The position numbers and the translations under genes were made by a program. From NCBI GenBank assembly GCA_018457135.1, contig JAGGDU010000083.1, positions 1 to 38,856 of the forward strand: a stretch of DNA of 38,856 nt, written 5' to 3'. Below the pieces are notes generated by a model, which saw nothing but the letters and a program-made list of their open reading frames with translations, was not told the DNA's origin and did no database searches. This document shows positions 7,184 to 32,126 of the stretch, piece after piece. How positions within the stretch are numbered: the first letter of the stretch is position 1; each line of letters begins with the position of its first letter. Origin of the DNA: Trichodesmium erythraeum GBRTRLIN201 (lineage in GTDB: Bacteria > Cyanobacteriota > Cyanobacteriia > Cyanobacteriales > Microcoleaceae).

Positions 7184-8644
7184 ATGCGGACAGAATGGAT
7201 CGCCAAACGTAGTGGACACAAAAATGTCTCTCAGATGCACTACGGTCGTCAGGGAATCATCACTGAAGAAATGAACTTTGTGGCCCAACGAGAAAATCTT
7301 CCTGCTGAGTTAATTCGTGCAGAAGTAGCAAGGGGACGAATGATTATCCCTGCGAATATTAACCACACTAACCTTGAACCAATGTGTATTGGAATTGCTT
7401 CTCGGTGTAAAGTTAATGCCAACATTGGCGCCTCTCCCAATACTTCTGATATTACTAAGGAAGTTGATAAACTAAAACTATCCATTAAATATGGTGCAGA
7501 TACCGTGATGGACTTATCCACAGGTGGCGGTAACTTGGATGAAATTAGAACTGCTATTATCAACGCTTCCCCAGTACCTATCGGAACAGTACCAGTATAC
7601 CAAGCAGTAGAAAGCGTTCATGGCAGAATAGAAAATCTGACTGCTGATGACTTTCTTCATGTTATTGAAAAGCATGCTCAACAAGGGGTAGACTATCAAA
7701 CCATCCACGCCGGAATTTTAATTGAACATCTACCTCTAGTCAGAAGCCGTATCACTGGTATAGTTTCCCGTGGCGGTGGAATTATCGCCAAGTGGATGCT
7801 CCACCATCACAAACAAAATCCTCTTTATACTCATTTTGACGATATTATTGAAATCTTCAAAAAATATGATGTTTCCTTTAGTTTAGGAGATTCTCTACGA
7901 CCCGGTTGTACCCATGATGCTTCTGATGAAGCCCAACTAGCAGAATTAAAAACATTAGGTCAGTTAACTCGCCGTGCCTGGGGACATGAAGTTCAAGTTA
8001 TGGTAGAAGGTCCTGGTCATGTACCAATGGACCAAATTGAGTTTAATGTGAAAAAACAAATGGAAGAGTGTTCAAGTCCTCCTTTGAATGCTTTGGATCT
8101 AGATCCCTTAGCATCCAACGCCAATGAACAGATGGAAAAGTTTAATGTTCTAGGTCCAGCTCCTTTCTATGTTTTAGGTCCATTAGTCACAGATATTGCT
8201 CCTGGTTATGATCATATTACTTCTGCTATTGGTGCAGCAATGGCGGGATGGTATGGTACAGCAATGTTATGTTACGTTACTCCGAAAGAACATTTAGGTT
8301 TGCCTAACGCTGAGGATGTCAGAAATGGACTCATTGCTTATAAAATTGCAGCCCATGCAGCAGATATTGGTCGGCATCGTCAGGGAGCGAGGGATAGAGA
8401 TGATGAACTTTCTGCTGCTCGTTACAATTTTGATTGGAACCGTCAATTTGAGTTATCTTTAGATCCAGAGCGAGCCAAAGAATATCACGATGAAACTTTG
8501 CCTGCGGATATCTATAAAACTGCTGAATTTTGTTCTATGTGCGGACCAAAATTCTGTCCGATGCAAACTAAGGTTGATGCTGACGCTTTGACAGAATTAG
8601 AGAAGTTTTTAGCCAAGGAAAAAGAAGTTGTAACTCAAAGTTAA
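7184..8644 (+). CDS. thiC: Phosphomethylpyrimidine synthase ThiC
   Basis: ThiC is a radical-SAM enzyme that converts aminoimidazole ribotide into hydroxymethylpyrimidine phosphate for thiamine synthesis. The 486-aa protein starts [20 protein letters not shown], as expected for cyanobacterial ThiC. It carries the family core ([60 protein letters not shown]). It ends with the [4Fe-4S] ligand motif C-x2-C-x4-C in [13 protein letters not shown]. The start is fixed by AAGGA at 7172-7176 and by the riboswitch just upstream. It is full length. A TPP riboswitch controls it, so expression should fall when thiamine is plentiful. Confidence 0.97.
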
Positions 8645-15987: not shown

Positions 15988-16755
15988 TTATTCTAAAGTA
16001 ACTACAACGCATAGTAATAATGCTTCTGTCCATTCAACTACAGCGCCGTAAGTGTCGCCAGTATGACCGCCCAAATAACGGTTAAACCAAGCACCTGTTA
16101 GTAGAGCGATCGCTATTCCTCCTATTGCCATTCCACAAGCTACCAACCAATTTTGAGGATCTAATAAAGTAAGAATTCCACTCATAAGCAGTAATAAGAG
16201 TATTCCTAGTAAAAAATCCAAAATAGAATATTTTGCTTTTTTGTGAAATGCTCCTTTTCCAGTAGGTTTAAGATAGGGGTAACAAGCGATCGCTACTAAC
16301 TGACCCCATCTCCCCCAACCTGCTATTCCCATTAGTATTAAAAGGCGATCGCTGTCTAAATCTGTTAAAGCTGTAATTTTGATGAGTAGTAGAGCGATCG
16401 CTGCCATTGCACCAAAAGCTCCTGTAGCGCTATCTGTCATTACTTCGAGTCTTCGTTTTTTTTCTGGTACCGCTAACCCATCAGCAGCATCCATTACCCC
16501 ATCCAAATGTAAACCGCCAGTTAAAGCAATTCCAGATATAATCACTACAGTTGATCTAGTGAGTACAGGCATTCCTAAAGAATGTAATCCTATATCTACT
16601 AAACCTTGAATACCTCCAAGTATCAATCCGATCAATGGAGCTAAACGAGCAATACCGTGAAAATCTAAATTCCAATCATGGGGAATTGGTAAACAGGTGT
16701 AAAAAGCAATTCCAGCCATGAACTTGGCAAGAGTTTCTCTAATTAGTTGCATCAA
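15988..16755 (-). CDS. cobS: Adenosylcobinamide-GDP ribazoletransferase (cobalamin synthase)
   Basis: CobS joins adenosylcobinamide-GDP to alpha-ribazole in the last steps of (pseudo)cobalamin synthesis, at the inner membrane. The 255-aa protein has the family motif DGVMDAADGLAVPEKKRRLEVM (given in part), with the Asp-rich catalytic DGxxDxxDG. It also has STGAFGAMA and several membrane helices (for example LLGILLLLLMSGILTLL and ACGMAIGGIAIALLTGAW). The N-terminal FYTCLPIPHDW block is typical. Length is normal and the ATG at 16755 fits the family start. No other cobalamin gene is adjacent. Confidence 0.95.
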   Translation of the reverse strand: MMQLIRETLAKFMAGIAFYTCLPIPHDWNLDFHGIARLAPLIGLILGGIQGLVDIGLHSLGMPVLTRSTVVIISGIALTGGLHLDGVMDAADGLAVPEKKRRLEVMTDSATGAFGAMAAIALLLIKITALTDLDSDRLLILMGIAGWGRWGQLVAIACYPYLKPTGKGAFHKKAKYSILDFLLGILLLLLMSGILTLLDPQNWLVACGMAIGGIAIALLTGAWFNRYLGGHTGDTYGAVVEWTEALLLCVVVTLE

Positions 16756-17887: not shown

Positions 17888-18159
17888 GGAGAAAGGAAAA
17901 ATATAAGGGATAGGAGATGTTTATTGAACTAAGAAGGGGCGAAAGCGCGAAGTTAAATTCTTGCTATTGTAAATTTAAGAGAGGTAAGAATATCTGAAGC
18001 GCCCTGGTGAAGTAAGATTAAAATCAGAAGGAGCAAAGGTACAAAGGGTTGAAGGCGTGAAGGCGCGAAGTTAAAATCAAATTTTGGCTCTGACTAAATT
18101 TCTCATTCTAGAGAAAATAGGTGAAATTTTCTCGCTTACTAAAATCTAAGATCGATCTT

Positions 18160-19263
18160 ATGTCCCAAAACTTTTCCTTTAATTCTCAGGCTCGTTGTAG
18201 CTATACAAAAGCTCGTGCAGGTATTTTTATAACTCCTCATGGGAGTATAAATACACCTAGATTTATGCCTGTGGGAACCTTGGCAAATGTAAAAACTCTC
18301 ACACCTGCTCAGTTAGAGGCGGCAGGTGCGCAGATGATCTTGGCAAATACTTATCATCTTCACTTACAACCAGGAGAAAGTATTGTTGCTGGTGCTGGTG
18401 GGTTACATAAATTTATGGCTTGGAATAGGCCAATATTAACTGACTCTGGAGGATTTCAGGTATTTAGCTTAGGAGATATCCGAACTATTAGCGAAGCAGG
18501 AGTTAAGTTTCGCTCTCCTCATGATGGTAGCATGATTGATTTAACTCCAGAACGCTCGATCCAAATTCAGAATGAATTGGGAGGGGATGTAATTATGGCT
18601 TTTGATGAGTGTCCACCTTATCCAGCGAGTTGGGAAGAGGTGGAGTTGGCAACAAATCGCACTTATCGATGGTTGCAGCGTTGCATAGAGGCTCATCAAC
18701 GTCAGGATCAAGCTTTGTTTGGTATTGTTCAAGGTGGTGTTTATCCTGAACTTCGTTCTATAGCAGCAAGGCAGTTGGTAGATTTGGATCTGCCTGGTTA
18801 TGCTATTGGTGGGGTAAGTGTAGGAGAACCAGGCGAGTTAATAGATCATATTGTGAAGGTGACAACTCCTTTCTTGCCAGAGGATAAGCCTCGTTATTTG
18901 ATGGGAGTTGGCACTTATAGGGAAATGGTACGGGCGATCGCTGAGGGTATAGATTTATTTGATTGTGTGATTCCTACTCGTTTGGGGCGACATGGGGCAG
19001 CATTAGTGAGGGGTGAGAGGTGGAATTTGAAGAATGCTAGGTTTAAGGAAGATTTTAGACCACTTGATGAGTTTTGTCCTTGTTATTGTTGTCAAAATTT
19101 TAGTCGAGCTTATCTGAGTCATTTGGTTAGAGCAAAGGAAGCTTTGGGTTATACTCTTTTGTCTTTGCATAATGTTACAGAATTGATTAGTTTTACCCAA
19201 CGTATTCGGGATGCTATTTTGAAAGATAGGTTTATTACGGAGTTTGGTAGTTGGCTAAGATAG
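18160..19263 (+). CDS. tgt: Queuine/archaeosine-type tRNA-guanine transglycosylase
   Basis: Tgt exchanges guanine 34 of tRNAs with GUN anticodons for the queuosine precursor. Recognisable blocks are [34 protein letters not shown], the substrate-binding [34 protein letters not shown], and [13 protein letters not shown], which carries the catalytic aspartate. The C-terminal zinc site is CPCYCC...H (C-x-C-x2-C plus a later His). I choose the ATG at 18160 ([21 protein letters not shown], 367 aa), which fits the family. A GTG 39 bp upstream (18121) is in frame and would add 13 residues. Intact. In many cyanobacteria psbK follows tgt; here a MITE-like repeat and nadB debris follow instead. Confidence 0.95.
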
Positions 19264-19527: not shown

Positions 19528-19766
19528 TACTACTCAGTTCAAAAAAATGTACCAACGGAAAATTATTCATAGAAATTGGGCTTTTCTAAGCAACTCCATA
19601 GGTAAAGATATCAAAACTCTAACTAATGAAGAAGAGGGTAGAAAAAAAAGTTTAGTAGGTAGATGCCAAAAAGGAAAGTGCCAGTTTTTCGGTGCAAAAA
19701 GCTAGTATTTTGGGCTGACTATGGCCTCAAATTCAGGGGTTGCTGAATCAAGGGATAAATTCTATT

Positions 19767-20590
19767 AGTCCGGGAATTGAAGTCTGACTCATTAGATCGC
19801 AAGCCACTCCACCCATCCAATAATGAGCAGCAGGAGCAACCGGAATAGGTTCTTGAAAAACATCAATACCCCATTTTTGACAGACATTGATAATATTGGG
19901 AAATCTGTCGCGAACGCGGTCTGAGTCAATGGCTCGCAAGTCCAAATAAACATGAGCATTGGTAGGCTTGGTAGCAGTTTTGTGCAAATGATGGAAAATA
20001 GCTCTACTGACAACATCTCTAGGAGCTAACTCTCCAGCCGGATGATACTCAAAGGCAAAGCGGTTTCCCTTATTGTCTATTAGGTGCGCTCCTTCTCCAC
20101 GAACAGCTTCACTAATGAGAAAACGAGGTGCTCCTGGTTTAATTAAGGCAGTAGGATGAAATTGGAAAAATTCCAAATCTCGCAAAACTGCCCCGGCACG
20201 CCACGCTATAGCAATTCCATTCCCCGTACTCACCTCAGGATTAGTAGTTTGGGCAAATATTTGACCGCCTCCACCTGTTGCCAAAACTACTACAGAGGAT
20301 TTTAAACATTGGATTTTACTTTCGTGAAGAAGACTAATACCTTGAACCCGAGCCTTTTGTGTGGCTAACCACAAATTTAATGCTACTGCCTGGGAAATTA
20401 TCTAAATATTTGGACGTTCTTGAGCTTCAATAACGAGTGTATCAATAATAGCTCTACCTGTGGTATCTGCTGAATGAAGTACCCGGGGATGAGAGTGAGC
20501 AGCTTCGAGAGTCATTGCCAGTTTTTTTCCTTTGCGGTCGAAGGCAACTCCCATTTCTACTAGATGAGCGATCGCCTTGGCAGCATTCTC
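19767..20590 (-). pseudogene. Partial second copy of nadB (L-aspartate oxidase), carrying the same TAG
   Basis: This segment matches nadB residues about 95-365. From 19767 to about 20576 I find one difference from the copy at 30841-31650 (TAGATG versus TAAATG), at a constant offset of 11,074 bp. It includes the same TAG codon (plus-strand 20402-20404). At the N-terminal edge, identity falls sharply: the next 18 bp differ at 5 positions but still encode ENAAKAIAHL where the other copy has VDNAARAIAHL. At the other edge the reading frame runs from SIPGL into unrelated IEFIP and a stop. Both the N-terminal FAD-binding part and the C-terminus are missing, so it cannot be a functional oxidase. The sharp change in identity suggests a gene-conversion tract or a recent segmental copy. 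Confidence 0.9.
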
Positions 20591-20617
20591 CATATTATTA
20601 GTCATTGACTTTCAATA

Positions 20618-20712: not shown

Positions 20713-21531
20713 TTAGATCAAGCACTCATCAACTTTAGTTAGCGCCATCTGACGCTGCCATTTTTCTTTGATGGTCTGATAATCATTGTAATATTCTTCT
20801 GGATTAAATCCTGGCAATATTTCAAAAACATCTATTTCTTGCCATAGAGGTTGTAAACTTTCAATGACTGCCATAGATTGAAAAACAATTTTTTCTGGTT
20901 TTAACCAATATTGTTTTTCTTCATGGGTGACATTAGGACGCAACTTATTTTCATTACCTGTATCTGTGGTACTAACATTAATAAAACGTCCCCTAATTAA
21001 TCCTTGCCACTCTTCTGACTTAGCTAAGTCTTTGATATATTGGCGTAAAGTATCCTTAGCATAAGTATAAGAATGCCAAAATGGGATTTTGTATTTATCA
21101 CTAATGGAACCAAAACCACAAAGAGCGAGGGTTGTTTTTCTCCCTCGCTGATGTTCTTCATTAAGTTTTTCTACTAAAGGGTTGACTACGTTAACAAAAG
21201 TATGATAGTTCGATGAGAATACTTCATCATCTATTTTGTGCCGCTCCTGGTTTAGGTGTGGTAGAGACTTGAGGTCTTCGTATTTAAATTTACCTACACC
21301 ATGCACCAATATTAAATCATTAACCTCACTAAGGTCTAATTGTTTGATCGCTTCCCTAGTTCTTTTTTCATCTAACAGATCGACTTTAAATTGTATAACA
21401 TCGGTTGTTTCTAAATGGCTTCGGGAAAGAGCCACACATTTTGTATTTTCTTGTTTTAAAAAGTGTTTGAGGTAGCAAGATCCAACAGCGCCTCCTGCAC
21501 CGGTGACAATTGCTAATTGAGTATTCATCAA
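20713..21531 (-). CDS. Short-chain dehydrogenase/reductase (SDR) family protein
   Basis: The 272-aa protein has a Rossmann N-terminus with the nucleotide-binding loop TGAGGAVGS (about residues 10-18). The second strand ends in ALSRS, the DLLD site follows, and the catalytic tyrosine/lysine pair is in SYTYAKD (YxxxK). LCGFGSISDKY supplies the usual Ser strand. It should be a cytosolic NAD(P)-dependent oxidoreductase; the substrate is unknown. The C-terminus (EILPGFNPEEYYNDY) is longer than in minimal SDRs. The start is either of two adjacent Met codons (21531 or 21528). It is the last of seven minus-strand genes in the cluster, 263 bp after the nicotinamidase gene, so it may have its own promoter. 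Confidence 0.85.
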   Translation of the reverse strand: MMNTQLAIVTGAGGAVGSCYLKHFLKQENTKCVALSRSHLETTDVIQFKVDLLDEKRTREAIKQLDLSEVNDLILVHGVGKFKYEDLKSLPHLNQERHKIDDEVFSSNYHTFVNVVNPLVEKLNEEHQRGRKTTLALCGFGSISDKYKIPFWHSYTYAKDTLRQYIKDLAKSEEWQGLIRGRFINVSTTDTGNENKLRPNVTHEEKQYWLKPEKIVFQSMAVIESLQPLWQEIDVFEILPGFNPEEYYNDYQTIKEKWQRQMALTKVDECLI

Positions 21532-21794
21532 ATTTTTTGCCTCTATTTTTTATGTTGGTATCTTCAAAAAGAATTATATTATTTTCATTTAATAAAAGTA
21601 GGATTCAACATCTAGGTCTAAAATTTTAAAATTTTATTTCAAACGCCAAATTCTACCTTCATTTCTAACAATAAGCCCTCGGCGATAAACATTTAGAAGG
21701 GTATTTAAAACTCTCTTAAACCTTTCGGTTTATAGAAACTAGTGATTTCAACTAGGACTGCTAAAAGCTAATAGCTAGTTAAGTGAATCAGCTT

Positions 21795-22538
21795 CTAAAG
21801 CTTAATAGTAGAAGCAATAAATGCACCACGTTCGGCCATTGTATATAACCCTACATGATGAGATATTTTCTGTGGATGAATAGCAGTTTTGGGTAAGCCT
21901 TTCTCGGCTGCCATTTGTGCTGTCATATCAAAAGTAGCACAACCTTGATCGTATACAGCCACATCTTTTAAGGTAGGCGCTAAACCATGATTGCGTACTG
22001 ACAGAATAGTAACAACAAAGTCCATGACACAGATATCAGTACAAATTCCAACTACAACAAGGGCCTCAAGCTTATTCTTATTTATCCAATCCAACAATAC
22101 ATTACCTTGGGTATCTATGTCAATAGAACCTATAAATCCATTAATACAATCCTTAAAAACCAATGTTGCCAGGGGGTTATCGTGTAACCATTGAAGTTCG
22201 GGAACGAGTTCTTCTTCTCCCGTACCCTTTTCACAATGTGGTGGATAAGGAGGCTCGGGTTTTCCTGGTTCATGGGTATCTAAAAAGGCTAATACAGGCC
22301 AACCTTTTTCTACAAAAGTACGAGCTAGGCGATCGCTTTCCGAGACCATTGTAGCGATTTGTTCGTTTGGCTCTTGGGGGGCTAATGGTCCAAAACCAAC
22401 AGTGCAAAAACCATTAAGTACATCTACGACTATGAGTCCGGTAGGGCGATCGGCTATAATATAGGGCTGTGGATCAATAGGTAAAGCAGCTTGAATGGTT
22501 GCTAAACTAGTATCAGGAGTAGCTAGAGTTGTAGTCAT
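21795..22538 (-). CDS. Nicotinamidase-like cysteine hydrolase (isochorismatase superfamily, plant NIC1 type)
   Basis: It resembles plant nicotinamidase NIC1, which hydrolyses nicotinamide to nicotinate for NAD salvage. Shared segments are VVDVLNGFCTVGFGPLAP, PEPPYPPHCEKGTGEEELVP, FKDCINGFIGSI and VVVGICTDICVMDFV. The catalytic triad is visible: Asp in VVDVLNGF, Lys in FKDCINGF and Cys in GICTDICV. Metal-binding residues are plausible in the DTHEPG and PPHC segments. I choose the ATG at 22538 (MTTTLATPD, 248 aa), because AAGGA lies about 10 bp upstream. An upstream in-frame ATG at 22580 would add 14 residues. Placement beside nadA and nadB agrees with an NAD role, but amide hydrolysis of a different substrate within the cluster is possible. 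Confidence 0.85.
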   Translation of the reverse strand: MTTTLATPDTSLATIQAALPIDPQPYIIADRPTGLIVVDVLNGFCTVGFGPLAPQEPNEQIATMVSESDRLARTFVEKGWPVLAFLDTHEPGKPEPPYPPHCEKGTGEEELVPELQWLHDNPLATLVFKDCINGFIGSIDIDTQGNVLLDWINKNKLEALVVVGICTDICVMDFVVTILSVRNHGLAPTLKDVAVYDQGCATFDMTAQMAAEKGLPKTAIHPQKISHHVGLYTMAERGAFIASTIKL

Positions 22539-22815
22539 ATTTATTTTAATCCTTATTTTTTCAAGAGATTTTCTGTTCAAATCTCATCAGTTTTGAATCG
22601 GGAAGGACTAATTTTTTGTTAGTACTTATAGTTATTTTAATTTAGATTAAGACAAGTATTTCTTGCTATAACTCGCGTTTCAGCAGAAAAAGTTTTCCAT
22701 CTCTTTTTGCAATGACTATAACTATTAAATCATAGCGTCCTTAGCCATAAACTTGGTATAGAACCCTAACCCATTCTAGGAGGAGAGATTAGGGTTGCTA
22801 TATAACTTTGAAAGT

Positions 22816-23931
22816 CTACATAAAAAGATGTTTATTTTGATGAAAGCGCTGCCGTGCCTGCAAAAAATCCCAAGAAACACAGGCTATTTCCAGATGTCGA
22901 TTACCTGTAAAAGCTTTCCGTCCATGCATAATCCTGGAGTCATTCATCAACAGAAGGTCTCCCGGTTCTAGACTAAAGCAGTATTCATAAACTGGATTTT
23001 TTACATATTGAAAGAAGGTTATGTAAGCTGCATAAAATTCCTCCATTTGATCGAATGGTAATTTCCAAGTGTAGCTGTGAGAGTTGGCAAAATTGATTCT
23101 AGTCACTTTTCCATATTCATCTAATTCTAATATAGGCTGAGTTCTGGAATAAAAGTATTGCCATTTTGTGTACACCTGTTTGAACTGGATGGGAGTTTGA
23201 GTCAAAATCTGAAAATAATCCGGATGTTGCTGACGAAAATCATCCACAACTCGAAAACCGTCTACGATCAGCGACTCCCCACCAGAAGCACTATTTTCTA
23301 CACAATACAAGCTGGTGAGCAAAGGTGGAGTGTGCCAATAAGTATAGTCAGTATGGAAGCTCATCGCATTACCAGTCTCTGCTAAATCCTTTCCTTCATT
23401 TGTAGTCTTTGATGGTGCGAACAATCCGTAGTCACCGTTGTAAATTGGCCCAATGGATTCTATTGTAGCCTGCAAATCCTTGGCTGGTATATTATGGAGT
23501 ACGGTGAATCCGAAAGTAAAAAGCTGCTCGAGCCACAATTCGGGATTGGATGAAAGAGCTTCCTGCAACTTTGATATATTTGCTTCTATCCAAGCTTTAT
23601 CCCATAAAAATTCCTGGTTCTGAGAATTAGATTCAGAGTCTTCATTTTCATTATCCTGCTCTCCGTCATCGTAAGCGTGACTCAACAACCAAGATATTGA
23701 GAATGTACTTTTGTGAGGAGGATCTTCGTTCCAAATGATAGTCAGTTCCCCATCTTTCTCTTCTACAGATAATGGTTCAGGGCATAAAGTATGCTTCATT
23801 TCATATAGTTTCTGAAAAGAAGTTGGATGACGAGATTTTGGAGATAAGCAATTATCCCGCAACCAAACATAGTGAAAACGTTTGCCTTTGACTGTAAGAA
23901 AAGTCTTATTTAAAGTTGCTGTACTCTTCAT
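22816..23931 (-). CDS. Gamma-butyrobetaine hydroxylase-like Fe(II)/2-oxoglutarate dioxygenase
   Basis: The architecture is that of gamma-butyrobetaine or trimethyllysine hydroxylases. The N-terminal GBBH-like domain (about residues 10-85; YVWLRDNCLSPKSRHP) is followed by a TauD/TfdA double-stranded beta-helix domain (about 125-371). Iron ligands are H193 and D195 (SFHTDYTYW) and H336 (RIMHGRKAF), and R345 is the likely 2-oxoglutarate anchor. An acidic low-complexity insert (about 88-107) links the domains. The length of 371 aa is normal. Family members hydroxylate betaines or related amino acids, so it fits with the betaine-type N-methyltransferase in the same cluster. The actual substrate is inference. 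The gap to the preceding gene is 153 bp. Confidence 0.88.
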   Translation of the reverse strand: MKSTATLNKTFLTVKGKRFHYVWLRDNCLSPKSRHPTSFQKLYEMKHTLCPEPLSVEEKDGELTIIWNEDPPHKSTFSISWLLSHAYDDGEQDNENEDSESNSQNQEFLWDKAWIEANISKLQEALSSNPELWLEQLFTFGFTVLHNIPAKDLQATIESIGPIYNGDYGLFAPSKTTNEGKDLAETGNAMSFHTDYTYWHTPPLLTSLYCVENSASGGESLIVDGFRVVDDFRQQHPDYFQILTQTPIQFKQVYTKWQYFYSRTQPILELDEYGKVTRINFANSHSYTWKLPFDQMEEFYAAYITFFQYVKNPVYEYCFSLEPGDLLLMNDSRIMHGRKAFTGNRHLEIACVSWDFLQARQRFHQNKHLFM

Positions 23932-24084
23932 GGAAAACTCCTATTTTTTTAGTTGTTCAAAATCAAAAAATACAAATTAATCAGAACTTATGCAGAAACT
24001 GGGTTGATGAAGTAAATCTCCTGGTTTTAATAGCAATATCAGAGGAATAAACCTGTTTTTTTTGGTTAGTTTTTGTAAATCCTA

Positions 24085-25485
24085 TTAATTTAAATTTTGA
24101 CATTCATCTATCATAATTTCCATTAATTTTGGTGGCATACGCTGATAAGATAAATCTAATTGTTGATATTCTTTCCAAAGCTTGTGATATTCATCTTTAT
24201 CTAAACGCGCTTCTTGAGTGTAGCAATTAATTGCTTTCCCAGTAAATCCTTTTTCCAGACATTTTTCTAAAGCAACTTTTGTCTCTTCAATTTCACCCAC
24301 ACATTCAAAAGCATTATGAGCTTTTAGCCCCATTAGTTGTCGATAATAAAGCTGTAGTTCAGGTTTATCAAAAAGATTTTCTTTGTTTAAAACTTGTTCA
24401 ATTTCATTTGCCTGTTCTGGAGTTAGATAAGCCATATAGGATAAATAAACATAAGCACATTTAGGACAGGATTTACACCAAGGCGGCTTAGTATTACAAG
24501 AGTAAACTAATTTTAAATCGCCTTTTTTAACTTTGTGAGCCAAAATTCGATATACTAATATATCAGAACATGGTTTTAGTAAACTAAAGACTACTAAATT
24601 ACTAATAAATTCTTCTTGAATATACTTTTCATAAACTTCTTTACACTCGGTACTTTTACACCAAGCATGATTAATATTTTGATTCCCTACTGTCACCTGT
24701 TCCCTATCAGCACTTTTTTCATTGCCATAACATAATTGCGTATATTTCTCTTGCAGAATAATAGGCAAAATTCCAAACATTCCATAAGCTAAGGGTAAAT
24801 CTTCATAATTTCTAATATCAGAAATTTCTAAATTTTCTACGCGATGAAGTTGAGCTGCTGGAGAATTTAGGAATGACTCAATAATGTACTGACGGTGAAC
24901 TTTTTCCGGTGGATTTTTAAGTTGATAAAGATGCTGTTCATGCATTTCAAACAACTTGTTTTGATTAGCATGAGTATGTAAATTGATGCTAAAACTATCA
25001 AAAGGAATATGATTATCGTCTAAAATTATAGCCATTAACAGGCTATCTTTGCCACCACCATTGCCAACAAGTAAGGGGATTTTTCCAGGAATAATAGTTA
25101 CTGCTGAATTTTTTATAAGAGTAATATCCTGATGAATAATTTTAGTTCCTTGATAATCTAAATTATTTGTTTCATAACGCCACTGTCCTAAACATTCTTC
25201 GACGCTTAAATCCCAAATATTTTGTAGATTACTTGTCCAATATTTACTATATTTTCCTAAGTCAAGGTGAGTCGGTTTTAAACTTAATATCTTTAATCCA
25301 TGAAATAACAAAATATGGAAATAAATTTTCTCCATGTATTCTTGAGTATATTCTGATTCTAGCTGATGAAAGTCAACTGTTGAATACCAAAGAGTAGTTG
25401 TAAAAGTTATTTCGTTGTATTGGTAAAGCAAGGTCAAATTATGTTTTGACCGAGTACAATCAACAAGTTTTAAGACAATATTCAT
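24085..25485 (-). CDS. MurL-like PP-loop ATP-pyrophosphatase/epimerase family protein
   Basis: The frame from 25500 (TTG) encodes 471 aa; the ATG at 25485 (MNIVLKL) gives 466 aa and is my choice. The numbering here uses the long form. A PP-loop LLVGNGGGKDSLL lies at about 143-155 (core GGGKDS), the ATP-adenylating signature of N-type ATP pyrophosphatases. A cysteine cluster follows at about 335-348 (CNTKPPWCKSCPKCAYV). The combination matches MurL, the enzyme that epimerises the terminal L-Glu of UDP-MurNAc-L-Ala-L-Glu. No mur or other peptidoglycan gene is near, so here it may act on a different carboxylate. The TTG start would overlap the stop of the upstream oxidoreductase gene by 4 bp, so the two genes are surely co-transcribed. 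Confidence 0.72.
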   Translation of the reverse strand: MNIVLKLVDCTRSKHNLTLLYQYNEITFTTTLWYSTVDFHQLESEYTQEYMEKIYFHILLFHGLKILSLKPTHLDLGKYSKYWTSNLQNIWDLSVEECLGQWRYETNNLDYQGTKIIHQDITLIKNSAVTIIPGKIPLLVGNGGGKDSLLMAIILDDNHIPFDSFSINLHTHANQNKLFEMHEQHLYQLKNPPEKVHRQYIIESFLNSPAAQLHRVENLEISDIRNYEDLPLAYGMFGILPIILQEKYTQLCYGNEKSADREQVTVGNQNINHAWCKSTECKEVYEKYIQEEFISNLVVFSLLKPCSDILVYRILAHKVKKGDLKLVYSCNTKPPWCKSCPKCAYVYLSYMAYLTPEQANEIEQVLNKENLFDKPELQLYYRQLMGLKAHNAFECVGEIEETKVALEKCLEKGFTGKAINCYTQEARLDKDEYHKLWKEYQQLDLSYQRMPPKLMEIMIDECQNLN

Positions 25486-25496
25486 TCTTAATATTC

Positions 25497-26582
25497 TCAA
25501 TTTTTTGTAATATTTTGTTCTTCAATATTAAGTACAACTTTTCCAAAGAAACCTTTACTTTGAAAAAATTGTTGAGCCTCTTTTATTTTAGATAACTGAA
25601 AAACTTGAGCAACCAGAGGTTTTAATAAATCTGCTTCTAGGTATCTAACTAACCTTTGAAACACATCTGATTCTAGGCGTGTTGCTCCAATCATCTCTAA
25701 ATCTTTGTAAATCAAATCTCGTAAATCTAGAGAAACCATTGGATTTCGAATCGCTCCACAGGAAACGTATCTTCCTCTTGGCTCAAGAGATTTAATCATC
25801 AAATTAAAATAATCTCCTCCGACGACATCTAAAGCAACAGTAATTTTATGTTGAGCTAAATTAGACTCTAATAAATTATCTCGTCGATAAACATAATCTG
25901 CATCTAAATCTTTAGCAAAAGCTTCTTTATTAGCTCCAACAATAGCAATAACTTTTGCTCCCCTAATTTTACTTAATTGAATTAAAGCACTACCAACACC
26001 ACCAGAAGCCCCTATAATTACCACAGTATCTTCCGCTGTAATTTTTCCTTTAGTAAGCATATTTTCTGCTGTCGAATAAGAACAGGGAAATGTAGCTAAT
26101 TCAATATCAGAAAGTGAAGAATTAATTGGATAAACATTAGTAATAGGAACTACTGTATATTCAGCAAAACCTCCATCTAATTCACTGCCAATATATTGAT
26201 AATTATTAGGACTTTCACTACGAATCCAACTATCAACTATAACCCTTTGTTGGATAAATTTAGAATCTACATTTTCCCCAATTTCTATTACTTTCCCAAC
26301 GATATCAGCACCTTGTATTCGAGGAAACTGGGTACCATGTTGTGTCCAGCAAGCAGAATGATTGGGGTCATTTTCTGTGTTATCTTGGAGGATAGCTTGA
26401 AAATTATCCTCTGCAGCATACCAGCCAGTGCGAGTATTAATATCTGTATTATTTACCGAACAAGCTCCCACTTTAATCAAGACTTCTCCTGGTTTTGGAG
26501 TTGGTTTAGGAACTTGAGTATAGACCAGTTTTTCTGGTCCACCAAATCCAGTAAGAATAACCGCATTCATTAAATGAGTCAT
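25497..26582 (-). CDS. Medium-chain (zinc/quinone-type) alcohol dehydrogenase family oxidoreductase
   Basis: The 361-aa MDR protein has an N-terminal GroES-like domain (GFGGPEKLVYTQVPKPTPKPGEVL, then FPRIQGADIVGKVIEIGENV) and a Rossmann domain with the cofactor loop VVIIGASGGVGSALIQL. Cofactor and fold point to NAD(P)H-dependent oxidation or reduction of a carbonyl, alcohol or enone. The insertion GWYAAEDNFQAILQDNTEND and the CWTQHG segment place it in the subgroup often annotated as alcohol dehydrogenase family. Classical zinc ligands are not fully evident. The start could be the second Met (MNAVILTG). It abuts the MurL-like gene with no gap, so coupling is likely. Confidence 0.87.
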   Translation of the reverse strand: MTHLMNAVILTGFGGPEKLVYTQVPKPTPKPGEVLIKVGACSVNNTDINTRTGWYAAEDNFQAILQDNTENDPNHSACWTQHGTQFPRIQGADIVGKVIEIGENVDSKFIQQRVIVDSWIRSESPNNYQYIGSELDGGFAEYTVVPITNVYPINSSLSDIELATFPCSYSTAENMLTKGKITAEDTVVIIGASGGVGSALIQLSKIRGAKVIAIVGANKEAFAKDLDADYVYRRDNLLESNLAQHKITVALDVVGGDYFNLMIKSLEPRGRYVSCGAIRNPMVSLDLRDLIYKDLEMIGATRLESDVFQRLVRYLEADLLKPLVAQVFQLSKIKEAQQFFQSKGFFGKVVLNIEEQNITKN

Positions 26583-26871
26583 TGTTTTTGCTTATTCTAC
26601 AAATTCCTTCAGTAATTAACGATTAATAATTACCTCTCACTTTTAGGGAAAAGATTTACTAAAAAGGAAAAAAAAATATTTTTTCCCCTTAAAAAGGGAG
26701 GCTTTTAACCTGAATTATTACAGCAATTTCGGAGGGGCGTAAGGTACAAAAATTCATTTAGTAATTTTGGCAACACAGCTTTCGAGCCGGCAACAAGTGG
26801 GATACTTTTCTTACAAAGATAAAGATTAATTTTCAACTGTACCTTACCATCCTCATGGGTTCCTATAATTA

Positions 26872-27312
26872 TTAATTATTCTGTAACCTATTGCGCACTT
26901 TCATTAAAATCTCTCCCAAACGATTTTTACCACTCCCATCTTTACCACATCCCCAATAATAATCTTCAGGAGCGTTTTCTACTATTAACTCATCCTTGGT
27001 ACTCAGAAGAATTTCGCCAATATCTTTATGGCTTTGAAATTTACAAAGTAAACCTCGCTCCATCACATCCTCTTTTATTTCCTCCCAGTCTTTGCGGAGG
27101 GGACGACTACGCTCTCGTCCCATTTTAGCAGCACCTGCAGGAGTTTTAGCCCATCTAATTTCTTCAAGATGCTGAACCCCCAAAAATTTTTGGGCTTGGA
27201 AATAATGCTCTGAAGTTGGCCACCAAAGTCCATCTAGTTCAAAACCGTGGGGGGAAAAGTTGGAGAAACAACCATAAGGCTGTTCTGTTTCATCAAAAAA
27301 GTAAATAGTCAT
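26872..27312 (-). CDS. NADAR domain protein (YbiA/RibX family)
   Basis: The 146-aa protein is a single NADAR domain. It begins with YGCFSNFSPHGFELDG (family FSNF motif), followed by WPTSEHYFQAQKF (the HYFQAQK motif) and ends with APEDYYWGCGKDGSGKNRLGEILMKVR. These are the hallmark motifs. NADAR enzymes cleave N-glycosidic bonds: YbiA acts on damaged early riboflavin intermediates, and some members remove ADP-ribose from guanine in nucleic acids. Length is typical and the gene looks intact. It is 102 bp downstream of the methyltransferase gene and 289 bp upstream of the MDR gene on the same strand. Which NADAR activity applies here is not readable. Confidence 0.92.
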   Translation of the reverse strand: MTIYFFDETEQPYGCFSNFSPHGFELDGLWWPTSEHYFQAQKFLGVQHLEEIRWAKTPAGAAKMGRERSRPLRKDWEEIKEDVMERGLLCKFQSHKDIGEILLSTKDELIVENAPEDYYWGCGKDGSGKNRLGEILMKVRNRLQNN

Positions 27313-27414
27313 TTTGGTTATCAGTTATCAGTTAGCCTCCTTCGGAGGAACTTCGTTAATATAAACTTGAGCTTCAGCCAAAAGTTTGAAGTACTGAAGT
27401 TTATTTTTTTGTCC

Positions 27415-28248
27415 TTAATTTTTCTCCAGCAAACGGAAGTGTAAAATCGCCCATTGCATATATCCCTGTTCGTAACGTTCGATCCAAGGTTGAATGCTAT
27501 CTAAAGTTTTATCTACAAATTCCGTTGATGTCAGTTTTACTACTTCATTGTACCTTTTCTGTACTTCTTCCCTAAAACGCCGATAATGGATCGCTACATT
27601 TTGCGAAAGGTCAATAAAATTTAATTCCTCAAAACCTAAATCTTTTAATGTTTGACTGTAAAAGCGGTAAGATCCCATGTCACTTATCCCCAAACGGTCA
27701 AAAGCAGTTTGCAATGCTCCTGGGGGAAAAGTTTCACTCTCCATGGGGTCAGTAAAAATAAATTCGCCCCCTGGTTTTAAAATTCTCTTGATTTCTTGAA
27801 AAACTAGACAGCGATCGCCACTATGCAAAATAGCATCTTGAGACCAAACAATATCAAAAGAGTTATTTGGGTAGGGAATATCCTCAAAGCTTCCTTGAGT
27901 TATTTCCACCAAAGGATCTAAGTTTTGTTCTTGGTTGAGTTGGCCATTGCGTTGATTTTGCAATTGGCTTAAGTTGAGACAACATACAGAACAGCCGTAG
28001 GTTTTAGCTAAATACCTAGCTGCCCCTCCATATCCTGCTCCGAGGTCAATGACTCGGGAATTTTGGTCTATTTTTTTCAGAGTTTGGGCGATAGTTTTTA
28101 CTGTACTCAGGGAAGCATCGTGGATAGGTTCATCTGGTCTAGTGTATATTCCATAATGAATATGTTCCCCACCCCAGATGGCAGCATACAATTTGTCGGT
28201 TTCTGTACTATCATAATATTTTTGAGCAATTGTTACTGCTTCTGTCAT
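27415..28248 (-). CDS. SAM-dependent N-methyltransferase similar to sarcosine/dimethylglycine methyltransferase
   Basis: The 277-aa class I methyltransferase resembles the cyanobacterial dimethylglycine N-methyltransferase of glycine betaine synthesis along its whole length. Matching parts are YYDSTETDKLYAAIWGGEHI, HYGIYTRPDEPIHDAS, motif I VIDLGAGYGGAARYLA (about 65-80), CLNLSQLQNQRNGQLNQEQ, VWSQDAILHSGDR, and LKPGGEFIFTDPMES. The end YMQWAILHFRLLEK also fits. The partner glycine/sarcosine methyltransferase is not in the window. The enzyme may therefore complete betaine synthesis begun elsewhere, or permethylate another amino acid. Trichodesmium is known to accumulate a trimethylated homoserine. 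First gene of the minus-strand cluster; the weak ribosome site is AGAAGATAA before the ATG. Confidence 0.85.
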   Translation of the reverse strand: MTEAVTIAQKYYDSTETDKLYAAIWGGEHIHYGIYTRPDEPIHDASLSTVKTIAQTLKKIDQNSRVIDLGAGYGGAARYLAKTYGCSVCCLNLSQLQNQRNGQLNQEQNLDPLVEITQGSFEDIPYPNNSFDIVWSQDAILHSGDRCLVFQEIKRILKPGGEFIFTDPMESETFPPGALQTAFDRLGISDMGSYRFYSQTLKDLGFEELNFIDLSQNVAIHYRRFREEVQKRYNEVVKLTSTEFVDKTLDSIQPWIERYEQGYMQWAILHFRLLEKN

Positions 28249-29005: not shown

Positions 29006-29977
29006 ATGTTTGCAACTCAAACTCGAATCAACCAAAATTTTAATAGCATACCAGATGATTTGTTTGAAGCGATCGCCGACCTAAAGAAAGAATTAAATGC
29101 TGTTATTCTAGCTCACTATTACCAAGAACCAGATATTCAAGATATTGCCGACTATATTGGTGACTCTCTTGGCCTTTCTCAAAAAGCTGCTGAAACTGAT
29201 GCAGATGTAATAGTTTTTGCGGGAGTTCATTTTATGGCAGAAACTGCGAAAATTCTTAACCCAAATAAACTGGTACTGCTACCAGATCTAGATGCAGGTT
29301 GCTCCCTCGCCGATAGTTGTCCACCAGAAGAATTTGGCAAATTTAAGGCGGCTCATCCTGATGCCATAGTAGTTTCTTATATTAATTGTACTGCTGCTAT
29401 TAAGGCAATGAGTGATATTATTTGCACCAGTTCCAACTCTGTCAAAATAGTTAAACAAATACCAACAGACCAACCGATAATTTTTGCCCCAGATAAGAAC
29501 CTCGGTCGCTATGTCATGGAACAAACTGGACGAGATTTGATTTTGTGGTCAGGCAGTTGTATTGTTCACGAGACATTCTCTGAGAAAAAGATTGTGCAAT
29601 TAAAAATAGAACATCCTGAAGCTGAGATTATTGCTCATCCAGAATGTGAACCAAATTTATTGCGTCATGCCAATTATATTGGTTCGACCACTGCTTTATT
29701 AAAATATTGCCAAGAAAGCCAAGAGCAAGAATTTATTGTGGCAACTGAACCGGGAATTATTCACCAAATGCAAAAGAGAGAACCCAAGAAAAACTTTATT
29801 CCCGCACCCGCAATGAATAATTGTGCTTGTAACGAATGCCCCCACATGAGGCTGAATAATTTAGAAAAGCTTTATTTAGCAATGAAAAATAAGACGCCAG
29901 AAATTATGATTCCTGAAGAAACACGAGTAGCAGCATTAAAACCTATTCAAAAGATGTTGGAACTTTCATTCACATAA
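29006..29977 (+). CDS. nadA: Quinolinate synthase
   Basis: NadA condenses iminoaspartate with dihydroxyacetone phosphate to give quinolinate in de novo NAD synthesis. The 323-aa protein has the three pseudo-repeats of the family. Visible motifs are [81 protein letters not shown] and [14 protein letters not shown]. The conserved cysteines for the [4Fe-4S] cluster are present. Length and start are normal and the gene is intact. It is divergent from the cluster and convergent with nadB, from which it is separated by about 245 bp. NadA needs the NadB product, so the damaged nadB next door is notable. Confidence 0.96.
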
Positions 29978-30221: not shown

Positions 30222-31937
30222 TCAAAATTTTTCAATGTTGACTGAAGACCCTCTCTCTTGGCCAGGGGGCGAGGCATTTGGAAAACCAGTTAATAAGCGA
30301 TCGCCCTGAACCAAAGTATGTAGTTTCCAATCATTAGAAGTTTTTGGATAATCACTGCGATAATGCCCACCTCTGCTTTCAGTTCGCCATGCAGCACTTT
30401 TAAGAATTAAATAACCCAAGTCTAAAATATTGAGTGTTTCTGCTGTTATCCGCAACTGCTCTTCAGCATTAGTCGAATTTAATTTTATCGTCTGGTTAGG
30501 CAAGAGATTAGCTAAAAACTTAACTATCTCAAAACTTGCTAAACTATCTCGCCAGCGCGCCACCTGATATAGTGCCTGACTTAATGACTCTCCTTTACGA
30601 GAAATTCCTGCACTTTCCCACATTAAACTTGGTAACATTTGTCGGATAGCCTCTATCTGTTCCATTTCCATATTCCAATTAGAACTTACCTGAAAAATAT
30701 CAGCATCAGGTGCCACCAAATTTGGCTCAATTTCAATCTGAGATAGTTGAGAAGCAAATACTAAACATTCTAACAAAGAATTGCTAGCTAAACGATTTGC
30801 TCCGTGAACTCCTGTACTTGCTGTTTCCCCAATTGCATATAGTCCGGGAATTGAAGTCTGACTCATTAGATCGCAAGCCACTCCACCCATCCAATAATGA
30901 GCAGCAGGAGCAACCGGAATAGGTTCTTGAAAAACATCAATACCCCATTTTTGACAGACATTGATAATATTGGGAAATCTGTCGCGAACGCGGTCTGAGT
31001 CAATGGCTCGCAAGTCCAAATAAACATGAGCATTGGTAGGCTTGGTAGCAGTTTTGTGCAAATGATGGAAAATAGCTCTACTGACAACATCTCTAGGAGC
31101 TAACTCTCCAGCCGGATGATACTCAAAGGCAAAGCGGTTTCCCTTATTGTCTATTAGGTGCGCTCCTTCTCCACGAACAGCTTCACTAATGAGAAAACGA
31201 GGTGCTCCTGGTTTAATTAAGGCAGTAGGATGAAATTGGAAAAATTCCAAATCTCGCAAAACTGCCCCGGCACGCCACGCTATAGCAATTCCATTCCCCG
31301 TACTCACCTCAGGATTAGTAGTTTGGGCAAATATTTGACCGCCTCCACCTGTTGCCAAAACTACTACAGAGGATTTTAAACATTGGATTTTACTTTCGTG
31401 AAGAAGACTAATACCTTGAACCCGAGCCTTTTGTGTGGCTAACCACAAATTTAATGCTACTGCCTGGGAAATTATCTAAATATTTGGACGTTCTTGAGCT
31501 TCAATAACGAGTGTATCAATAATAGCTCTACCTGTGGTATCTGCTGAATGAAGTACCCGGGGATGAGAGTGAGCAGCTTCGAGAGTCATTGCCAGTTTTT
31601 TTCCTTTGCGGTCGAAGGCAACTCCCATTTCTACTAAATGAGCGATCGCTCTGGCCGCATTGTCCACCATAAACCTTACTGCTTCCTGGTCACATAAACC
31701 TACACCTGCTTTGAGAGTATCTTCTAGATGCAAGATGGGGTTATCCGCAGGATCAATGGCAGCAGCAATACCTCCCTGAGCATAGTTACTTGAACCCATG
31801 TTTATAGTATTTTTAGTAACCAAGGCGACTCGGAGATGAACAGGTAAACAAAGAGCCGCATAAAGTCCGGCAGCACCTGAACCTACCACTATAATGTCAA
31901 AGTGAGGAAAAATACTTGGAGAATTTAATCTTGGCAT
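30222..31937 (-). pseudogene. nadB: L-aspartate oxidase gene with an in-frame amber codon
   Basis: NadB oxidises L-aspartate to iminoaspartate with FAD, the first step of de novo NAD synthesis. The frame from the ATG at 31937 (MPRLNSPS) gives the FAD-binding N-terminus DIIVVGSGAAGLYAAL, then SSNYAQGGIAAAI, HSHPRVLHSADTTG, VLATGGGGQIF, LEFFQFHPTAL, SEAVRGEGAHL, HYWMGGVACD, and GETASTGVHGANRLASNSLLE. Codon 154 is TAG (plus-strand 31476-31478), where relatives have NIQVISQA; a CAG to TAG change would explain it. Nothing else disturbs the 571-codon frame. The C-terminal tail (after LVQGDRLLTGF) looks unrelated to the family and abuts the palindrome. Unless TAG is read through, the oxidase is lost. 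Upstream in-frame sequence extends to 32063. Confidence 0.85.
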
Positions 31938-32126
31938 CTGTAAAAGTATATTTTTGTATAGAATAAATTCCTGTACAACATTTTTTGAACAAGTCTTTTC
32001 TAAAGTTGATTTTAGGGAATATTTATAATAGAAGTTACCCAAGCATATCAAATCACACACCATCTATAGTTAGTTTCCAGGCGCAGGTGCTCCGAACATG
32101 AAATACCTCACTAGGTATGGTGGTTA

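Follow-up and report, generated by a model that had tools for sequence, protein, structure and literature searches.

A conserved gene set beside NAD biosynthesis genes in Trichodesmium erythraeum and its relatives that probably draws on nicotinate

Seven minus-strand genes lying in a row at 20713-28248 of a 38,856-nucleotide stretch of DNA from Trichodesmium erythraeum GBRTRLIN201 (the window, which is contig C83 of a 7.2-Mb genome labelled G000) probably form a specialised-metabolism cluster that starts from nicotinate. They encode an SDMT-like methyltransferase (MT), a NADAR protein, an MDR dehydrogenase, a MurL-like PP-loop protein (MURL), a TauD/GBBH-like dioxygenase, an isochorismatase-fold hydrolase (ISOC) and a divergent SDR, and in these families, as in the existence, order and strand of the seven open reading frames (ORFs), our analysis agrees with the original prediction made for this DNA. 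That prediction had them possibly making an amino-acid-derived, hydroxylated or epimerised quaternary ammonium compound, such as an osmolyte, by a pathway not previously described; the conserved unit stands, and N-methylation and an undescribed pathway remain plausible, but the betaine osmolyte is not supported, as the unit sits among genes for de novo NAD synthesis, ISOC keeps nicotinamidase residues, the dioxygenase lacks three of the four aromatics that cage trimethylammonium groups, and no protein of the set reaches the SDMT, GBBH, TmpA or MurL equivalog cut-off. The gene set, its conservation, its link with nad genes and its catalytic motifs are read from the sequences themselves, and because the set recurs beside genes for the pyridine ring of NAD its product probably comes from nicotinic acid and is not an ordinary betaine osmolyte; that the end product is itself nicotinate-derived we consider likely.

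The seven genes are flanked by nadA and nadB, which the original prediction did not include. The nadA gene (29006..29977, plus strand, divergent from MT) encodes a quinolinate synthase scoring 408.7 bits against TIGR00550, over the cut-off of 262.9, and was the sole intact nadA found in a search of the window genome. The nadB gene (30222..32063, minus strand) is an L-aspartate oxidase frame scoring 621.9 bits against TIGR00551 (cut-off 452.75), with one in-frame TAG at 31476-31478 which may be a sequencing error, may be read through or may mark a real loss. A partial nadB copy of 827 bp lies downstream of SDR (19766..20592, minus strand) and has 5 mismatches against 30840-31666 by self-BLAST; both copies of this direct repeat hold the same in-frame TAG, and no unbroken nadB was found in the own-genome search. 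NadC is encoded on another contig of the window genome (C216). A candidate second nadB on C155 was rejected, being 38% identical, under the NadB cut-off and in a group whose low identity led us to class it as succinate-dehydrogenase-type. Pieces of a second nadA were seen in the window genome (C40:40972-41268, L016; 67%, three stops) and in the sister genome G329 (C28:13645-13842; 61%), and in both genomes the cluster copy may have taken the place of an earlier nadA.

A search of 388 genomes of the order turned up MT matches with E values of 1e-50 or better in 41, of which 16 carried an orthologue of at least 69% identity, a count which takes in broken or partial genes in G329, G369, G302 and G305. 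A nad gene was counted if it was intact, partial or a remnant, at least 45% identical and within 15 kb. By this measure nadA, nadB and/or nadC lay near MT in 15 of the 16 genomes, the exception (G305) being a 4.8-kb contig, near a close MURL orthologue in 8 of 10 (the exceptions being an 11.9-kb Hydrocoleum contig and Spirulina), and near ISOC in 23 of 30 as scored by script, or 24 with G042, whose ISOC adjoins nadC in L057. The ISOC exceptions were G369 (a 6.8-kb contig), G137, G169, G247, G263 and G334. We estimate a chance of about 1% that any of three genes in 7 Mb falls within 15 kb of a chosen gene. The 16 control stretches (306 kb) round distant MURL homologues (about 30-39% identity) showed neither nad genes nor ISOC nor NADAR.

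A conserved neighbourhood was the test that the original prediction had set itself, and it was found: the set is present in varying form in Okeania, Hydrocoleum, Moorena and Symploca, and MT orthologues stand with NADAR, MDR, ISOC, SDR and MURL in several genera, with some partners missing in places. Symploca SIO2E9 (L156) carries nadA-nadB-MT-NADAR-MDR-MURL-PhyH-ISOC-SDR on a single strand, Symploca SIO2C1 (L157) carries nadA...MT...NADAR-MDR-MURL-GBBH-ISOC-SDR-orf562-nadB, and Okeania SIO1I7 (L159) carries nadC / nadA remnant-MT-NADAR-MDR-MURL-GBBH-ISOC-SDR-...-nadB. The Moorena-type genomes G084 and G042 (L153, L154, L056, L057) carry nadA-nadB-MT-NADAR and, beyond a stretch of other genes with a polyketide synthase (PKS) among them, ISOC-SDR-nadC-MDR-MURL-GBBH-PhyH, so that nadC lies inside the cluster in Moorena, as it also does in G180. 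In Hydrocoleum the set is split among several contigs, Hydrocoleum sp. CS-953 being a relative within the window genome's genus group. A single public-genome scan, with the PP-loop protein as query, returned 10 loci, namely two in Okeania, two contigs in Hydrocoleum, two in Moorena, two in Symploca, one in Spirulina and a distant match in Gracilibacteria. A protein of about 560-570 amino acids was also seen near or between nadA and nadB in several genomes (L166, L169, L010, L157, L237); it has a methyltransferase domain at its N-terminus and a C-terminal half without a Pfam match.

A rival reading is an NAD-homeostasis island: nadA, nadB, nadC, NADAR and the nicotinamidase would keep the NAD pool in balance, and the tailoring genes would be passengers that settled at a busy locus. 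An MT-less cluster in G231 (L246 6033-11862) fits this: apart from an EamA transporter it consists of NADAR, a gene like that of FMN reductase, a CinA/MoCF protein (best model “NMN deamidase-related”, 224 bits against a cut-off of 293), ISOC and nadB. Its pairing of NADAR, ISOC and nadB with the deamidase-related gene also speaks for the nicotinate reading. G329, where nadA and nadB outlast most of the other genes, fits an island too. Against it, MT, MDR, MURL, GBBH or PhyH, and SDR recur jointly over several genera at about 50-92% identity, and the ratios of non-synonymous to synonymous substitution (dN/dS) between the window and Okeania L005 are 0.10 for SDR, 0.10 for ISOC, 0.19 for GBBH, 0.19 for MURL, 0.18 for MDR, 0.22 for NADAR and 0.10 for MT. 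All seven genes are thus under purifying selection and are not chance ORFs, and we regard a homeostasis island with passengers as unlikely. Against Symploca L010, synonymous sites were saturated for SDR, ISOC and MT and no ratio was obtained for them. G326 (L241) and G101 (L248) hold NADAR, ISOC and nadB, with ORFs of similar length in the remaining places.

ISOC (21795..22580, minus strand; PF00857; best PDB match PncA, 7.8e-9) is a nicotinamidase-type hydrolase in which D53, K143 and C184 and the metal-site residues D101, H103 and H115 are invariant in seven aligned sequences; all six residues tested are those of a nicotinamidase, corresponding to the catalytic D, K and C and the metal D, H and H of PncA. 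It scored 29.8 bits against the bifunctional nicotinamidase model PRK11609, under the equivalog cut-off of 174, and may resemble plant NIC1. The alignment suggests a later start than listed, likely at Met15. NADAR (26872..27312, minus strand; best PDB match YbiA, 3.7e-44) scored 159.3 bits against TIGR02464, a riboflavin-intermediate N-glycosidase model with a cut-off of 73.7, and its Glu112 aligns with a Glu of YbiA, placing it among the YbiA-type N-glycosidases. The YbiA counterpart of Glu112 is taken to be the Glu of the subfamily rule given in PMC11125620.

Were the set instead a betaine osmolyte cluster, MT would trimethylate an amino acid (for example toward homoserine betaine) and the GBBH-like enzyme would hydroxylate it. 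MT (27415..28248, minus strand) is SDMT-like, being nearest to sarcosine/dimethylglycine N-methyltransferase (NF041675, 323 bits; best PDB match 2o57, 2.2e-60), and homoserine betaine is reported as a compatible solute of Trichodesmium erythraeum in PMC6753628. The MT score is under the NF041675 cut-off of 550, and three orthologues scored 331, 340 and 356, but likely SDMTs themselves reach just 368-477 in three cases, including one with a fused GSMT that passes its own cut-off; this test therefore carries little force, and the gene company is the better guide to MT. GSMT and SDMT of glycine-betaine synthesis are the nearest named relatives of MT, but its orthologues form a separate identity group (69-93%, fragments included, apart from a group at 38-52%), keep other gene company and have no GSMT among their neighbours. 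Other genomes have SDMT-type genes, fused or free, and the two stretches examined round SDMT-like genes showed no nad gene, ISOC or NADAR.

The dioxygenase (22816..23931, minus strand; PF02668, 1.2e-44; TmpA 6npb, 3.9e-47) is a 2-oxoglutarate/Fe(II) enzyme of the TauD family which shares its family and its iron ligands (H193-x-D195 and H336) with gamma-butyrobetaine dioxygenase and TmpA, but it scored only 234.4 and 238.9 bits, under the GBBH and TmpA equivalog cut-offs of 414.75 and 400. The trimethylammonium cage of human GBBH, which we take to be Y177, W181, Y194 and Y366 (the first three numbers fit our alignment with an offset of one), aligns with Y168, A172, E185 and C351, so that three of the four aromatics are replaced, and the cage-site Glu is common to Okeania L005 and Symploca L010. 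The loss of these aromatics argues against a GBBH-type betaine substrate. A betaine cluster would moreover not be expected to keep company with nad genes, would leave the nicotinamidase-type gene, NADAR and the MurL-like gene unexplained, and has to contend with the decay of the set in G329; we judge it improbable, and a homoserine- or glycine-betaine pathway was rejected on cage loss and nad company.

MURL (24085..25500, minus strand) carries GGGKDS at residue 148 and CxxCxxC at 342, and alignment of eight sequences suggests that its start is later than listed, with Met6 likely. It resembles the Xanthomonas-type MurL glutamate epimerase in its C-terminal region and its PP-loop-like motif, but the match to NF041275 (E 1.6e-26; 92.8 bits against a cut-off of 700) covers only about 165 residues (251-414), and no peptidoglycan gene was recognised among its annotated neighbours. 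There was no Pfam match, no PDB match better than E 0.98, and the AlphaFold model was unusable (pLDDT 43.5). MDR (25497..26582, minus strand; PF00107 and PF08240; best PDB match 4j6f, 1.4e-84) is a zinc-type/quinone-oxidoreductase-like dehydrogenase, and SDR (20713..21531, minus strand) is a divergent short-chain dehydrogenase scoring 27.8 bits against 26.6 for PF00106, with motifs GAGGAVG and YTYAK and no PDB match at 0.001. A distant MURL-like family of about 450 amino acids, 30-34% identical, is present in many cyanobacteria (L061-L075) and often adjoins a protein of about 165 amino acids (DUF427 in L062).

It is conceivable that MURL and the dioxygenase form a core that modifies an amino acid or peptide, with nad genes hitchhiking and nicotinate not a substrate. 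In Spirulina (G028, L012) a MURL orthologue (57%) stands beside PhyH (43% to the Moorena PhyH), a PLP decarboxylase and HalD-like and Asn-synthase-like genes, with no nad gene on the 11-kb contig, and in L058 a MURL at 38-39% identity stands with PhyH and an oxidase of DAO type. MT follows the nad genes more closely than MURL does, however, and nad genes are still present in G358, G180 and G253, whose clusters yielded no close MURL; we hold this core to be quite improbable. The Spirulina CS-785/01 cluster (L012 161-9406) also includes isochorismatase, AlaDH-like, SDR and methyltransferase genes and looks like another pathway.

Several observations weigh against a nicotinate origin. The window nadB is interrupted by its in-frame stop while intact copies are present in relatives; ISOC occurs with no nad gene in five genomes (fetched stretches of 13.7-19.9 kb each); the Spirulina MURL orthologue lies in a different cluster without nad genes; and a PP-loop protein is not obviously needed for a nicotinate-only product. 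MT is 45-52% identical to likely glycine-betaine enzymes. NADAR genes are also found away from the cluster, in carriers and non-carriers, and since YbiA enzymes have several substrates (PMC11125620), a pyridine nucleotide as the substrate of this NADAR is suggested by the gene company. Several carriers have only the cluster nadA or nadB found, so dedicated extra copies are shown for few genomes, and the nadB trees, with deep branches unresolved, leave the ancestral copy unsettled.

Two NadB-type nadB genes were present in 4 of 17 genomes (G323, G245, G118 and G084). For nadA, G084 has two intact genes, G127 one intact and one partial, and G329 one intact and a short piece, while G323 and G245 have one intact gene elsewhere and a 39-residue remnant beside MT; a single copy was found in G369, G281, G042, G173 and G118, and none in G305, G349 or G362 among the genomes examined for nadA copies. 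The cluster nad genes are thus in part extra copies. A nadB tree of 44 rows (an earlier tree was made without the partial row G371, and this one without that row and one of two sdhA rows) placed the cluster copies of family f1 in one clade (100/100) which includes G326, with four sampled G326 congeners elsewhere; nadB is therefore not simply following species, and we claim that it has moved non-vertically. The second nadB copies form a long separate clade common to two families, and the label “housekeeping” for the second nadA/nadB loci (G323 C66, G245 C193, G118 C93, G084 C4) was dropped because of it. A methyltransferase-domain protein adjoins the second nadB in G323 and G084.

A recurrent frame has nad genes, MT and NADAR at one end and ISOC, often with SDR and nadB, at the other, and the block between them varies. 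It is MDR-MURL-GBBH in the window and Okeania SIO1I7 and MDR-MURL-PhyH in Symploca SIO2E9; in G253 it is a CmcI-type methyltransferase, a GST-domain protein and an amidotransferase-domain protein; in G305 and G371, and as a C-terminal part in G358, it is a Rieske-type oxygenase; and in G302 and G311 (Okeania genus group) it comprises MR/MLE, methyltransferase, 2-hydroxyacid dehydrogenase, HpcH, HMGL-like, PrpD, FAD oxidoreductase and PhyH genes. Judged by gene order, the pattern is that of a biosynthetic family with a common start and differing ends. In Moorena the cluster may continue into a one-module PKS: that of G084 reads A-PCP-KS-AT-KR-ACP-TE (from Pfam on its two ends and from the sequence itself, with AT assigned by eye), and its A domain has FPWEI at the amino-acid-binding site, where amino-acid-activating A domains have Asp. 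Lacking that Asp, FPWEI would suit a starter that is a simple carboxylic acid, for instance nicotinate, although the link is speculative because short unannotated ORFs and a Uma2 gene separate the PKS part from ISOC. Between the Moorena-type halves (L153 11563-16778, L167 2023-11511) there are also a methyltransferase-domain protein, an FAD oxidoreductase, a protein with B12-binding and MetH-activation domains, a single-module A-KS PKS with thioesterase, and a sulfotransferase-domain protein.

The sister genome G329 (same genus group as the window, nadA 98%) retains nadA, an unbroken nadB and ISOC, with MT in two frames, GBBH as a 20-residue stub and NADAR as a fragment. MURL, MDR and SDR were not found in that stretch, nor was there any genome-wide MURL match at 1e-5. 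As the set has decayed while nadA and nadB are kept, the pathway is dispensable there. In the window itself the gaps across the seven genes are 102, 289, -4 (an overlap), 153, 235 and 263 bp, and a promoter and terminator scan gave numbers close to chance (47 against a mean of 39.8, sd 7.2, and 7 against 8.8). Ordinary genes lie around the set, encoding ThiC, cobalamin synthase CobS and queuine tRNA-ribosyltransferase (7184-8644, 15988-16755 and 18121-19263).

All substrates of the nicotinate pathway, its product and the order in which the enzymes act are our inference, as follows. NadB would oxidise aspartate and NadA would close the pyridine ring to give quinolinate, which NadC, from C216 in the window genome and from within the cluster in some relatives, would convert to nicotinate mononucleotide. 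NADAR would then cut the N-glycosidic bond of a pyridine nucleotide or nucleoside, freeing nicotinate or nicotinamide, and ISOC would turn nicotinamide into nicotinate. MT might methylate the ring nitrogen, giving a trigonelline-type intermediate, or might act on a reduced ring; N-methylation at the ring nitrogen is a tentative assignment that we rate somewhat below an even chance. MURL would activate the carboxylate as an adenylate with ATP, MDR and SDR would carry out redox chemistry with NAD(P)H, and hydroxylation would fall to the GBBH-like or PhyH dioxygenase. Homarine (N-methylpicolinate) was set aside as a product, no quinolinate decarboxylase candidate having been recognised.

The plant trigonelline enzyme belongs to a different methyltransferase family. 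Trigonelline synthesis resembles the proposed pathway in joining nicotinate with an N-methyltransferase, trigonelline being made from nicotinic acid according to PMC8269262. In the cluster MT has several other enzymes beside it, so that trigonelline could be no more than an intermediate. The altemicidin (sbz) pathway, which uses NAD as a building block and whose first step is a pyridoxal phosphate (PLP) enzyme joining NAD and S-adenosylmethionine, as described in PMC11610977, likewise diverts pyridine-nucleotide chemistry to a specialised metabolite. Unlike it, the window set has no PLP-family member among its seven genes; the cluster instead comes with de novo nad genes and a gene of nicotinamidase type. 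In the open-licence literature searched, judged by titles and abstract beginnings, neither a nicotinate gene cluster of this kind nor a matching pathway appeared.

We consider it about evenly balanced that these loci represent a hitherto undescribed cyanobacterial cluster family which captured the de novo NAD pathway as its front end, with a methyltransferase of its own quaternising the free nicotinate, with genus-specific tailoring giving different pyridine or reduced-pyridine alkaloids and with captured copies in some lineages now serving as the cell's sole nadA or nadB. If nicotinate is indeed the starting point, marine filamentous cyanobacteria such as Okeania, Hydrocoleum, Moorena and Symploca would possess a natural-product family that taps the NAD pathway through nad genes of its own cluster. 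This would provide a handle on marine nitrogen-containing betaines and alkaloids, by way of labelled nicotinate and of carriers compared with the decayed sister, and would give a context for the PP-loop family.

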